Origin: Caldilineales bacterium
GTDB lineage: Bacteria; Chloroflexota; Anaerolineae; J102
Length of the DNA: 64,000 nt
Reading direction: 5' to 3'
NCBI GenBank assembly: GCA_019695115.1
Contig: JAIBAP010000030.1
Span: forward strand, 1 to 64,000
This document shows, in pieces, positions 38,655 to 43,524 of this stretch. The notes under the pieces were generated by a model that was given only the letters and a program-made list of their open reading frames with translations, did not search any database and had not been told where the DNA came from. The translations under genes and the position numbers were made by a program. Every line of letters starts with the position of its first letter. The first letter of the stretch is position 1.

Positions 38655-38684
38655 TTGCGACAAGCCGGGCCGCTGGCCTACAAT
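38655..38684 (+). promoter_or_regulatory. Promoter of the cytochrome/redox operon
   Basis: TTGCGA (38655-38660) and TACAAT (38679-38684) are separated by 18 bp. The predicted start is near 38691, about 54 nt before the ATG. Confidence 0.65.
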
Positions 38685-38744
38685 GGCCGGCAGGCGATCG
38701 GATGTCTTGCCGTCGCCAAACCGCTCGAAAAAAGGATGGACGCC

Positions 38745-40490
38745 ATGTTCCGCTCTCGCTTCCTTCTGGGAGCTGCTGCCCTCATCGTCGCCCTGCTTAC
38801 CCTCACTGCCGCCATCATGGCGGCCCCCGCCGATCCACCCGCCCCCCGCTTCTACCTCCCCCTCATCGGCCGGGGGATGGCCTTCCCCCTCCTGCCGCCT
38901 ACCCCCCTGCCACCTGCCTCCCATCCTGGCCTGCCACTGTCCCGCTTTGCCACCGACGACTTCAGCGGCCCCTTTGTCTGCGCCAACTGCCACGCCAACT
39001 TGACCGACGCCGGCGGCCACGACGTGACCATGAGCACGCAGTGGCGGGCATCGACGATGGCCAACGCCGCCAGAGACCCGCTCTGGCAGGCCAAAGTCAG
39101 CGCCGAAATTGCACGCCATCCCGAACTCCAGGCCGAGATCGAAGCCACCTGCTCGCGCTGTCACATGCCCATGGCCTACACCCAGGCCCTGGTCAAGGGC
39201 CAGACCCCGGCCATCTTTGGCGAAAACGGCTTCCTCAACCCGGCCCACCCCCTCCACCAGGCGGCGATGGACGGCGTCTCGTGCACCCTCTGCCACCAGA
39301 TCCAGCCTGACGGCCTGGGGACCCCGGCCAGCTTCTCTGGCCATTTCGCCATCGAAACCAGCACCACACCCCCGCAGCGCACCCTCTTTGGTCCCTACCC
39401 CGACCCCGACGGCATGGGCGCTATGATCATGCGTCAAGGCTCGGCCTACAACCCCAGGCAGGGGCAGCACCTCACCGGCTCAGCCCTCTGCGCCACCTGC
39501 CACACCCTCTTCACCAACCACGCCCTCGCCGCCAATGGGGACAACGGCTTTCCCGAACAGGTCCCCTATCTGGAATGGCTGCACAGCAGCTATGGCGACG
39601 GCCAGGGCCAGGACAGGCAATGCCAGGACTGCCACATGCCCGTGGCCCAGGGCGCCGTCGCCATCTACCCCGGCTGGCCCCAACACGAACCGTTCTACCA
39701 GCACCACTTCGTCGGCGGCAACCTCTTCATGCTCAAGATCCTGCAAGCGCACGTGGGCGAACTGGGCCTGACCGCCTCGACCGCCGACTTCGAGGCTGCC
39801 ATCGAGCGCACCCGCGCCCAGTTGCAAGAACAGACGGCCGAGATCACCATCCCTGCCTTCGTTCAGGATCAGAACCTTCTGCGGGCCACCGTCCGCGTCG
39901 CCAACCAGAGCGGCCACAAATTCCCCACCAGCTACCCGGCCCGTCGCGCCTGGCTGCACCTGACCGCCAGCGATGCCGAAGGCCGGGTGTTCTTCGAGTC
40001 CGGCCGGCCTCTGAGCGACGGCGGCATCGTCGCCAACGACGCCGACCTCGACCCGACCAGTTTCGAACCGCACTACACCCGCATCTTGGCCCCCACCCAG
40101 GTGCAAATCTACGAAGCCATCATGGCCGATGCCGCCGGCAACCCCACCTTCACCCTGCTCGACGCCGCCGCTTATGCCAAAGACAACCGCCTGCTTCCCG
40201 CTGGCTTCGACAAAACCACGGCCTTGCCGGCGATTGCCGTCATCGGTGGGGCGGCGACCGATGCCGATTTCACCGGCGGCGCGGACGAGGTGATCTACGA
40301 GATCGACGCCGCCGGCCGGCCAGGCCCGTACCAGCTCAAGGTCGAGCTGCTGTATCAGTCGCTCATGGCCGGGTTCGTCCAGGACTTGCGGCTCAGCAAC
40401 ACGCCGCAAGTCGAACGCTTTGGCCGCTATTTCGACCAGGCCGACAAAACGCCGATCCGGATCGATGCGGTCGAGGTGGTGGGGCCGTGA
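38745..40490 (+). CDS. Exported pentaheme c-type cytochrome
   Basis: The 581-residue protein has a signal segment (FLLGAAALIVALLTLTAAIMAA) followed by the RFYLPLIGRG motif. Five CxxCH heme-binding motifs are seen: CANCH (79), CSRCH (136), CTLCH (180), CATCH (249) and CQDCH (293). The N-terminal half resembles cytochrome c554-type multiheme proteins; the C-terminal half (about 340-580) is beta-rich and heme-free. The electron partner is unknown. Start: the ATG at 38745 has AAGGA 8 nt upstream; the ATG at 38736 is too close to that site. Its stop overlaps the GTG start of the TlpA-like lipoprotein. Confidence 0.88.
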   Translation: MFRSRFLLGAAALIVALLTLTAAIMAAPADPPAPRFYLPLIGRGMAFPLLPPTPLPPASHPGLPLSRFATDDFSGPFVCANCHANLTDAGGHDVTMSTQWRASTMANAARDPLWQAKVSAEIARHPELQAEIEATCSRCHMPMAYTQALVKGQTPAIFGENGFLNPAHPLHQAAMDGVSCTLCHQIQPDGLGTPASFSGHFAIETSTTPPQRTLFGPYPDPDGMGAMIMRQGSAYNPRQGQHLTGSALCATCHTLFTNHALAANGDNGFPEQVPYLEWLHSSYGDGQGQDRQCQDCHMPVAQGAVAIYPGWPQHEPFYQHHFVGGNLFMLKILQAHVGELGLTASTADFEAAIERTRAQLQEQTAEITIPAFVQDQNLLRATVRVANQSGHKFPTSYPARRAWLHLTASDAEGRVFFESGRPLSDGGIVANDADLDPTSFEPHYTRILAPTQVQIYEAIMADAAGNPTFTLLDAAAYAKDNRLLPAGFDKTTALPAIAVIGGAATDADFTGGADEVIYEIDAAGRPGPYQLKVELLYQSLMAGFVQDLRLSNTPQVERFGRYFDQADKTPIRIDAVEVVGP

Positions 40491-41512
40491 GGCGTGTTCC
40501 GGGTTCCGTGTTGCGTGTTCCGTATCTGGTGGCGGGGTGCGCACTCGGGCTTTGTCTGCTCCTGCTGGCCGGATGTGGGCGCTCGCAATCCACCAACGAG
40601 GCGGCGCCCGACCAGCCTGCGCCCGGCGTGGTGGCCTATGTGGATGGCAGGCCGCTGAGCGAGGCCGAATGGCGGCAGGCGCGGGCCTATGCCCAGGCCA
40701 CGCTCCTGCTCTTGGGCCAGCCCGGCGACCGTTTCGATGAGGCGGCCGTCTTCGACGGCTTCCTGGAGGATCGCCTGTTGGCGCGAGCCGCCGATGCAGC
40801 CGGCTTCGACCTGGCTGCCACCGCCGCCGCGAGCGAGGAACAGCGGCTGTTGCAGGTGGCCGGGGCGGATGCGAACAGGCTGGCCGAGGTCTTGGCCCAG
40901 GCCGGGCTGAGCCAGGCCGCCTGGGAAAGCGAGCTGGCCCGCAGCCTGCGCGCCGCCAGCTTTCTCGAAGATGTGGTTCTGGCGGATGTCGCCCCGCGCC
41001 AGCGCGACGACGAGCGCCGTCGCTATCTCCAGGGCTTGCGAGATGAGGCCAACCTGGTGGTTCTGGTCACGCCGCCGCTGTCCGAGGGTCTGGAACCCGG
41101 CCAGTTGGCGCCAGATTTCGAGCTGGTCGGGCTGGATGGCACGCCGGTGCGGCTGAGCGAGTGGCGCGGGCGGCCGCTGCTGGTCAATTTTTGGGCCACC
41201 TGGTGCGGGCCGTGCCGCCAGGAAATGCCGCTGCTGCAAGCGGCGGCAGAACGCTACGCCGATCAGGGTCTGGTGGTGGTGGGCGTGGATGTGGGCGAGC
41301 CGGCCGAGGCGGTGGCGGACTATGCCCGCGGCCTCGGCATCCAGTTCCCCATCCTGCTCGATTCCACCCAAGATGTCTCCGATCTCTATCGCGTCTATGG
41401 CCTGCCAACGTCATTCTTCCTCGACCGCCAGGGTGTGGTAGACTTCCACCTCATCGGCCCGCTGGACGCTCGCACACTCGAACGCCAGTTGGATTCGATC
41501 CTCACCCGTTGA
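40487..41512 (+). CDS. SurA/TlpA-like thioredoxin-fold lipoprotein
   Basis: The 341-residue protein has a hydrophobic N-terminus ending in the lipobox LLAGC (lipidated Cys31). A SurA/parvulin N-like helical region follows (about 45-195; AYVDGRPLSEAEWRQ). The C-terminal TlpA/ResA-type thioredoxin domain (about 205-340) has FWATWCGPCRQEMP, with redox Cys240 and Cys243, and YGLPTSFFLDRQG with the cis-Pro. It would act outside the membrane as a reductase; ResA/TlpA proteins keep apocytochrome CxxCH thiols reduced, which fits the preceding multiheme gene. Start GTG at 40487 overlaps the cytochrome stop (GTGA). GTG at 40508 is an alternative. Confidence 0.85.
   Translation: MRRVPGSVLRVPYLVAGCALGLCLLLLAGCGRSQSTNEAAPDQPAPGVVAYVDGRPLSEAEWRQARAYAQATLLLLGQPGDRFDEAAVFDGFLEDRLLARAADAAGFDLAATAAASEEQRLLQVAGADANRLAEVLAQAGLSQAAWESELARSLRAASFLEDVVLADVAPRQRDDERRRYLQGLRDEANLVVLVTPPLSEGLEPGQLAPDFELVGLDGTPVRLSEWRGRPLLVNFWATWCGPCRQEMPLLQAAAERYADQGLVVVGVDVGEPAEAVADYARGLGIQFPILLDSTQDVSDLYRVYGLPTSFFLDRQGVVDFHLIGPLDARTLERQLDSILTR
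40494..40521. repeat. Four GTGTTCC-type heptamers at the cytochrome-lipoprotein junction
   Basis: GTGTTCC, GGGTTCC, GTGTTGC and GTGTTCC follow each other directly. They encode the first residues after the lipoprotein start (RVPGSVLRVP), so a spacer-type repeat has become coding sequence. Confidence 0.8.
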
Positions 41513-41539
41513 TCGACCTTTCACCCCCTTTCTATCATC

Positions 41540-43243
41540 ATGCCAAAAGACCTTTACAAGCTGTTGCAGGTTCACCCTGAAGCAGACCAGGAAGGCATCG
41601 AAGCTGCTTACCAGCGGCTGGCGGCCAAGTTCGACCCTGCGACCGCCCCTGATGACCCCGTCATCGCCGCCGCCCGCCAGGAGATCGAGGGGGCCTACGC
41701 CGTTCTCGGCAGCCCCGCCGAGCGCGCCGCCTACGATGCCAGCCTGATCGCCGCCCCCGCCGCCGAAACCAGCGTCGAAGCTGACGCCCTGGCGAGCATC
41801 GAGACGCCAGCGGAAGCGGCCCCTGAAACTGCGACCGCGGCGCCGCCCCCGCCCGCCCGTCGCGGCGTGCCCTCCTATGCCTGGGTTGCCGCCGTGGCCG
41901 TGGCTGCCATCGCCATCATCGCCCTGGTTTTCGTCCTGCGCAACCGCAAACCGGGCGAGGAGCAGGCCGCCGCCAGCTCGACCGTGGTTGCTCAAGCGGC
42001 CACCGCTGCCCCCAGCCCTGCTTCTGTCGCCACGCCGGCTGCCACGCGTGCGCCTTTCCCCACCACCGATGCCAGCGGCCCCTACATCCTTCCGCCCAGC
42101 ATCCCCAATTTCGCCGTCTCCGACCGCCCCACCCGCAGCCAGGGCGCAGCCACGGCGCCGGTGGTGATGTACGAGTGGTCGGACTATACCTGACCCTACT
42201 GCAAGCGCTTCCACACGGAAGTGCTGCCGCTTCTGGAAGAAGCGTACATCAAGACTGGAAAGCTACGGTTCGTCTACAAAGAATATCCTGTCGTCAACGG
42301 CGACCTCTCGGTGATCGCCAGCCTGGCCGCCCAATGCGCCGCCGATCAGAACCAGTTCGCGGCCATGCAAGATTGGCTGTTCAGCAGCGAGGACTGGAAA
42401 AACGAGCAGGCTGTGGCCAAAGTCAGCGAGGCGGCGAAGACACTCGGCCTCGACGGCGCCGCCTTCGATACCTGCTTCAACACGCAGGAGTCGTTACAGC
42501 CAGTGATCGAAGATTATCAGGAGGGCCAGAACTTCGGCATCCGTGGCACCCCCAACTTCGTCATCGACGGCCATTGGGTGCAGGGTCTGCTCTCGGCTGC
42601 GGAATTCAGCCGCATCATCGACGCCTTGCTGCTGGAAGCCGACACCGGCAAGCTCCCGGCGGATGTGGTGACGGTGACGCCGTCGCCCACTCCCGACACC
42701 AACTTCAATACCGACAGCGACCACACTCTTGGCGATCCCAAGGCGCCGATCACGATTGTGGAGTTCTCCGACTACCAATGTCCCTTCTGCCTGCGCCACT
42801 ACCAGCAGACGCTGCCCCAATTGAAGGAGAAGTACATCGATACGGGCAAAGCCAAATACGTTTTCATGGATTTCCCCATCGATAGCCTGCACCCCCAGGC
42901 TCGCAAGGCGGCCGAGGCGGCGGAATGCGCCGGGGCGCAGGGCAAGTATTGGGAGATGCATGAGAAGCTGTTTGGCGATCAAGCAAGCTGGAATGGCAAC
43001 GACAAGGCCGCCGATGTGTTCAAGCAATACGCTGCCGGTCTTGAGCTGGATGCCACTGCGTTCGCCGCCTGTCTCGATGGCGACCAGTTTGCAAACGAAA
43101 TCGCTGCCGATCAGCAGGATGGGGCTGATGCAGGCGTGGAGGGCACGCCCGCTTTCTTCATCAACGGCCGCTTTGTCAGCGGCGCCCAACCCATCGAGGT
43201 CTTCCAGCAACTGCTCGACCAGTTGCTGGCCGAAAAGTCATGA
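41540..43243 (+). CDS. Probable selenoprotein: membrane-anchored tandem DsbA-like protein (in-frame UGA at 42191)
   Basis: Two open stretches, 41540-42190 and 42194-43243, share one frame separated only by TGA. Read through, they give one 567-residue protein. Residues 1-70 resemble a J-domain with DPA in place of HPD. A membrane helix spans about 112-133. Residues 160-380 form a DsbA-like thioredoxin domain (YEWSDYT-U-PYCKRFH), and 385-567 form a second one (EFSDYQCPFCLRHY, C414/C417). UGA (codon 218) sits exactly at the first redox Cys of C-P-Y-C. The cis-Pro loop is intact in both (GIRGTPNFVIDG, GVEGTPAFFING). It follows the TlpA-like gene by 27 bp. Alternatives are a Cys-to-stop mutation, or a sequence error. 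Confidence 0.75.
42205..42224 (+). promoter_or_regulatory. Candidate bacterial SECIS hairpin
   Basis: GCGCTTCC (42205-42212) pairs with GGAAGTGC (42217-42224) in an 8-bp stem including one G-U pair, with loop ACAC. The spacer from the UGA is 11 nt, the spacing of the SelB-binding minihelix in E. coli fdhF mRNA. The loop lacks the G usually found in its first two positions, which weakens the case. Confidence 0.5.
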
Positions 43244-43250
43244 CACAACA

Positions 43251-43278
43251 GAGCGGCGGGCCAATCGGCCCGCCGCTC
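43251..43278 (+). terminator. 12-bp GC-rich terminator-like hairpin after the DsbA-like gene
   Basis: GAGCGGCGGGCC and GGCCCGCCGCTC flank an AATC loop, 7 bp after the stop codon. A T-tract is lacking. It lies between convergent genes and probably ends the redox operon. Confidence 0.75.
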
Positions 43279-43299
43279 TCGCGTTAGAGCACTAACTTC

Positions 43300-43524
43300 T
43301 TAGGCTGCCAGGCGATTCTCGACCCGCTGACGTAGCAGCACCAGTTCGTCGCGATCGAAGCCCTCGATGGCCATCAAAAACGCTGAGAATGGGATTTGTA
43401 GACGAACCTTGGGCTCAGCTTTAAGCAGGTTGTAACGCAACACATCAGCTAATTGCCGTGCGTCGTCGCTGACGTCGGCAGCGCTCATCACCGGTGCTTT
43501 GGGTTCGTGGGCTGATTTTTTCAT
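43300..43524 (-). CDS. Small uncharacterised protein (74 aa)
   Basis: I do not recognise this protein. It has a polar N-terminus (MKKSAHEPKAP), then a helical pair (DDARQLADVLRYNLLK and FDRDELVLLRQRVENRL), and reads as a soluble helical protein. The size would fit an antitoxin or adaptor, but no partner gene is adjacent. It is convergent with the DsbA-like gene. Codon usage looks genuine; a TTTTTAGCATAA stretch lies upstream of the start but no good promoter was found. Confidence 0.55.
   Translation of the reverse strand: MKKSAHEPKAPVMSAADVSDDARQLADVLRYNLLKAEPKVRLQIPFSAFLMAIEGFDRDELVLLRQRVENRLAA

Follow-up and report, generated by a model that had tools for sequence, protein, structure and literature searches.

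The window analyzed here is a 64,000-nucleotide stretch of DNA from a Caldilineales bacterium. Its forward strand carries a frame that starts with ATG, ends with TGA at 43241-43243 and contains a single internal stop, a TGA at codon 218 (Table 1). This codon is the first position of a U-P-Y-C motif in the first of two DsbA-like domains, with Cys221 following, and standard annotation would cut the gene short at codon 217 and enter the remainder as a second fragment. The initial annotation had observed that the TGA breaks an open frame exactly where a DsbA C-P-Y-C motif would have its first Cys, and this placement was confirmed in frame. Selenocysteine (Sec) is a rare amino acid encoded by UGA.

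A Pfam search of the window protein matched Thioredoxin_4/DsbA twice and, at the N-terminus, a DnaJ-like domain. In an AlphaFold2 model, most residues of both DsbA-like domains had a pLDDT >90, and the best solved-structure matches were DsbA proteins; the pTM of the model was 0.50, such that the mutual placement of the domains is unreliable. The protein shows the thioredoxin fold with a helical insertion, a CxxC or UxxC motif and a cis-Pro that characterize DsbA-like oxidoreductases. It had been proposed that the DsbA fold goes on downstream of the TGA, including the cis-Pro loop, and that the second domain keeps C-P-F-C as an internal control. The Pfam matches, P338, P537 and the model agree with the former, and residues 414-417 bear out the latter.

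The N-terminal domain is 56% identical over 66 amino acids to a separate J protein encoded in the same genome. The HPD motif expected of a DnaJ co-chaperone is absent from the J domain in the window, and because FDP replaces it we refer to the domain as J-like only. In another genome of the class (L120, 986-2419, G030:C21), a J domain and TM segment are fused to what we judged from sequence to be FKBP-like and cyclophilin-like prolyl isomerase domains, and J-TM starts may therefore join different envelope folding factors in the class. Right behind the terminal TGA, at 43249-43278, is a strong inverted repeat, AGAGCGGCGGGCC AATC GGCCCGCCGCTCT, that has no T run and is perhaps a transcription end.

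The gene encoding a SurA-like/TlpA-type protein (Table 1) is directly upstream of the orthologue in five of eight relatives examined, with 46-50% identity. Beyond it, at 38655-40490, the window holds a gene whose cytochrome c-like product has five CXXCH motifs; a gene of this kind takes the same position in G001 and G005. Elsewhere in the same genome, a separate all-Cys DsbA homologue (C48:22436-22927) adjoins VKOR (C48:22017-22394), and a DsbD-type membrane protein is encoded on contig C37. The DsbA homologue and VKOR are likely a housekeeping oxidative pair apart from the window protein, and the location of VKOR beside the all-Cys homologue suggests that the window protein is not the housekeeping oxidase.

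Table 1. Features at the locus, in window coordinates.
Feature	Coordinates	Strand	Basis
Predicted selenoprotein gene for a 567-aa product (Sec218 included): J-like domain, TM helix and two DsbA-like domains	41540..43243	+	Open frame, Pfam, NF041057
Codon 218 (TGA), almost certainly read as selenocysteine	42191..42193	+	TGA in 12 loci, Cys in 2 congeners
J-like domain, residues 3-67, degenerate HPD (KFDPAT)	41546..41740	+	PF00226, 47.8 bits
Predicted TM helix, residues 114-134	41879..41941	+	Hydrophobic stretch in translation; helix in AlphaFold2 model
DsbA-like domain 1, U-P-Y-C, cis-Pro338	42125..42649	+	Pfam, alignment, AlphaFold2 model (pLDDT mostly >90)
DsbA-like domain 2, C-P-F-C (42779-42790; residues 414-417), cis-Pro537	42713..43237	+	Pfam, alignment, AlphaFold2 model
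Hairpin HP1 of recoding element	42203..42226	+	Compensatory changes, covariation
Hairpin HP2, CGCTTC-TGGAA-GAAGCG, proposed SelB-docking hairpin	42228..42244	+	Synonymous identity, motif restricted to DsbA genes
Upstream neighbour: SurA-like N-terminal region and TlpA/ResA-type thioredoxin domain, C-G-P-C, lipobox-like start	40475..41512	+	PF00578, 101 bits; SurA_N_3 weak

Codon 218 in homologues and the selenocysteine machinery

The initial annotation had held that Cys at this codon in relatives, and UGA in close strains, would favor recoding and that other stops or frameshifts would speak against it. We found TGA at the homologous codon in 12 loci from 11 species of the same family group (G000, which is the window genome, G003, G005, G006, G007, G008, two in G009, G010, G012, G016 and G018); these loci are related to each other, and counts of their sequences are not counts of independent events. 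Two congeners of the window genome carry Cys at the site, as C-P-Y-C in G002 and C-S-H-C in G001. The remaining seven loci carry Tyr (Y-P-N-C or Y-P-G-C) and comprise one well-supported, separate paralogue clade, three members of which sit in genomes that also have the TGA form. None of the 21 homologues has TAA, TAG or a frameshift at the site, and domain 2 of the TGA loci is always C-P-F-C or C-P-Y-C. Protein conservation persists past the UGA, with dN/dS of about 0.06-0.13 in two close pairs.

In the tree, both Cys forms are placed next to the window gene and nested in the TGA forms. The ancestor of the TGA/Cys clade likely had Sec, which would have been replaced by Cys in the genus of the window genome, probably twice; we call this likely and not certain because the tree support is 90/91. 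In the Tyr clade (L035-L038 and L070-L072), Cys replaces Ser just ahead of a conserved Asp in an EWCDY motif, and the cis-Pro loop of domain 1 reads E/D-L-P, not G-T-P. Domain 1 of this clade looks catalytically altered.

Other DsbA-like genes with an in-frame TGA were also observed. A second such gene in the window genome (L076, G000:C12:57697-58260) has its TGA in SDFL-U-G-A-C, and homologues with the same in-frame TGA are present in G002, G003, G008 and G009 (U-G-x-C) and in G005 (U-S-S-C). The tandem DsbA-like gene L043 (G032:C24) has in-frame TGA codons at 1606 and 2158 (U-P-F-C and U-P-A-C). Behind each, at equal distance, is a short hairpin whose loop is CGUGA in both cases, and the gene could possibly encode a polypeptide with two Sec residues. 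The three-domain protein L040 (G049:C147) has Cys motifs in its first two domains, with U-P-F-C in the third, and the position of Sec thus appears to shift among tandem forms of the class.

The assembly of the window genome (5.99 Mb in 135 contigs, rated 100% complete and 2.3% contaminated) had been proposed as the place to look for selA, selB, selD and tRNA-Sec, and all four were found. It contains one tRNA-Sec above the Rfam cut-off (73.1 bits, anticodon tca, or UCA), and profile matches identified SelB (334.9 bits), SelA (552.8 bits) and SelD (353 bits), the last of which carries an in-frame TGA of its own. Matches to tRNA-Sec under the gathering score were disregarded because control genomes without Sec yield them too. 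The Sec machinery is present in nearly every genome of the family, also where the site holds Cys or Tyr, and a correlation between machinery and TGA is therefore unusable.

Two hairpins behind UGA-218

The 60 nt from the UGA fold with a z of -4.3 against shuffles. Two adjacent hairpins, HP1 and HP2, follow the UGA in 12/12 Sec loci, and the pair is not shown by the Cys and Tyr homologues; RNAalifold gives the same structure from the alignment alone. Five of the nine base pairs of HP1 have compensatory changes on both sides, and its covariation of 0.243, compared with 0.122 in shuffles, was reached in 0 of 500. Sliding the pairing partners by 1-3 columns destroyed the pairing. All six pairs of HP2 are invariant and give no covariation signal, and the evidence for HP2 is therefore synonymous constraint. 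Across codons +12 to +17, 361/361 synonymous codon pairs among the Sec loci are identical, compared with 51% over the gene as a whole and 33% for the same codons of the Tyr clade. In codons +4 to +17, four Sec-Sec pairs had a dS of 0-0.1, and two pairs of greater divergence had 0.2-0.35; outside these codons dS was about 0.8-1.6 or saturated. For the same codons, dS was 1.9 in the Sec-Cys pair G000/G002. This Cys congener, G002, keeps eight of nine HP1 pairs and two of six HP2 pairs, as if HP2 had lost its purpose first.

The exact HP2 sequence has 18 matches in 61 genomes, all of them within DsbA-like genes, and a reversed control pattern has three. For 17 of the matches the contig extends far enough to show the codon 37 nt upstream, and in each of them it is TGA. 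Six of the 18 occur in five other families of the same class, where the surrounding protein differs. A scan of 41500-43300 with Rfam returned nothing but a single match below threshold, located at the 3′ end of the gene, and therefore no Rfam model names the element.

The published model of the bacterial SECIS places a G in the first two apical-loop positions, 16-37 nt from the UGA (PMC13188914). The window element, like that consensus, is in the coding region just past the UGA, but it consists of two hairpins. HP2 has a UGG loop, with the expected GG, in all 12 loci, located 40 nt from the UGA and outside the range; HP1, at 18 nt, is inside the range, but only 1 of the 12 sequences has the required loop G. 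Neither hairpin alone fits the model, because HP2 is too distant and HP1 is without the loop G in 11/12. The recoding element is SECIS-like and is not assigned to the published SECIS model as it stands. Since the element falls outside the published search rules, genes of this kind in the lineage may escape rule-based searches.

The reading of the UGA and the choice of hairpin

We considered whether the internal TGA could have an explanation other than Sec. That the two nearest relatives, both of the same genus, carry Cys at the codon would be expected if a sequencing error or recent nonsense mutation had struck an ordinary Cys-DsbA gene. An identical TGA is nonetheless present in 12 loci from 11 genomes that were assembled separately, the frames on both sides are open and under purifying selection, and HP2 is found only in TGA genes, all of which makes this account exceedingly improbable. 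The initial annotation had likewise judged chance placement of a nonsense codon unlikely, in accord with the recurrence of TGA, the dN/dS values and the folding signal. Very nearly as improbable is that the UGA is a true stop; the gene would then yield a short protein made up of the J, TM and half-domain parts and, from a GTG within the frame (42221), a second protein, with the hairpins as regulatory structures. A mechanically called ORF does begin at that GTG, and strong hairpins do separate the stop from the downstream start; such a start, however, would cost domain 1 its active-site motif and first strand, the two sides form one uninterrupted domain in the Cys relatives, and the genome has the full Sec machinery. 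We found nothing in favor of the UGA being read as another residue such as Trp without Sec and see almost no chance of it, as the site holds Cys and never Trp in homologues, the window gene itself terminates in TGA and so also uses UGA as a stop, and the Sec machinery together with position-specific hairpins accounts for the reading. Pseudogene, sequencing error and internal restart were rejected on the conservation of the TGA.

The locus combines the features by which bacterial selenoproteins are recognized: SelA, SelB, SelD and tRNA-Sec in the genome, a conserved UGA aligned with Cys and a conserved RNA structure downstream. From these sequence data, the internal UGA is almost certainly read through as selenocysteine at a redox active site. 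With scarcely less than full confidence, we suggest that UGA-218 is decoded by SelB and Sec-tRNA(UCA), as directed by the coding-sequence element just downstream.

It is less clear-cut which of the two hairpins SelB would use. HP2 is most likely the docking hairpin with HP1 as a spacer, because G002 has lost HP2 pairs and SelD genes show a similar hairpin order. In the SelD genes of the class, a GGCC/GGCC hairpin is followed by a GRCGCAGGU..UGCGYC hairpin with a GGU loop about 33 nt from the UGA, an order that resembles HP1-HP2. We regard it as possible, though rather unlikely, that HP1 is instead the SelB-binding SECIS and that HP2 is accessory or otherwise conserved, in which case the gene would still be a selenoprotein. 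The spacing of HP1 is within the published range, and a CGUGA-loop hairpin occurs at about the same place in related DsbA genes of Thermodesulfovibrionales and G032. Against this, the HP1 loop is variable and the UGG loop of HP2 invariant, the Cys congener has lost HP2 and not HP1, and the GGU loop of the SelD genes stands in the second hairpin. A broader proposal, to which we give even chances, is that a covarying spacer hairpin and a docking hairpin beyond the accepted distance define a distinct two-hairpin class of bacterial SECIS, used by DsbA-like genes and similarly by SelD genes.

Proposed function and known relatives

We propose that the gene product, with its two DsbA-like domains, belongs to the Rcas_1661 (NF041057) family and would be an envelope-anchored thiol:disulfide oxidoreductase. 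SelB with Sec-tRNA(UCA) would insert Sec at UGA-218, guided by the downstream element; HP2, through its invariant UGG loop, may dock SelB, and HP1, between the UGA and HP2, may shorten the effective distance. In domain 1, Sec218 and Cys221 would form a reactive selenol/thiol pair. Domain 2 would provide a second, Cys-based site, and electrons could pass between it and domain 1 or a partner such as the neighboring TlpA-type protein. Taken as a whole, this proposal is reasonably likely to hold. By pairing a Sec active site with a Cys one, the protein contains a built-in control, and together with the Cys replacements in congeners and the Tyr paralogues this makes the contribution of selenium to an envelope disulfide enzyme directly testable.

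The NCBIfam model NF041057, "Rcas_1661 family thioredoxin-like (seleno)lipoprotein", scores the window protein at 275.6 bits against a curated cut-off of 190, is above cut-off in two stretches and matches 21/21 homologues. The group is listed as "DsbG-like protein, UxxC" in PMC13188914. The window protein shares the U-x-x-C active site of the family; unlike the model, which is 247 aa with one domain, it has tandem DsbA domains, of which only the first has Sec. Most orthologues have a lipobox-like sequence and resemble lipoproteins; no lipoprotein signal is present in the window protein, which starts with the J-like/TM region instead. By domain content, then, the window protein is a member of the NF041057 family and not a lipoprotein. 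The initial annotation had considered the J-like/TM/tandem form, with Sec confined to domain 1, new. The architecture is present in the window, and we found no prior description of a tandem form in which one of the active sites has Sec, of the J-like/TM N-terminus or of the two-hairpin element; the family, however, already had a name, and among the orthologues compared the J-like/TM N-terminus is particular to the window genome. A text search for a two-stem-loop bacterial SECIS, or for the Rcas_1661 family by name, returned no relevant paper within its incomplete coverage of the literature.

DsbA-like selenoproteins are an established family in Sargasso Sea and bacterial genomes (PMC1088965, PMC1794560), in agreement with the initial annotation that such proteins had been predicted in other bacteria. 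Those proteins resemble the window protein in having a DsbA-like domain, U-x-x-C and a SECIS-like structure downstream; the window protein differs in its tandem domains and two-hairpin element, and those papers do not describe such a protein from its lineage. The DsbA proteins of Wolbachia (3f4r/3f4s) and Corynebacterium diphtheriae (4pwo/4pwp) share the DsbA fold with CxxC and cis-Pro and, unlike the window protein, are all-Cys with a single DsbA domain per protein.
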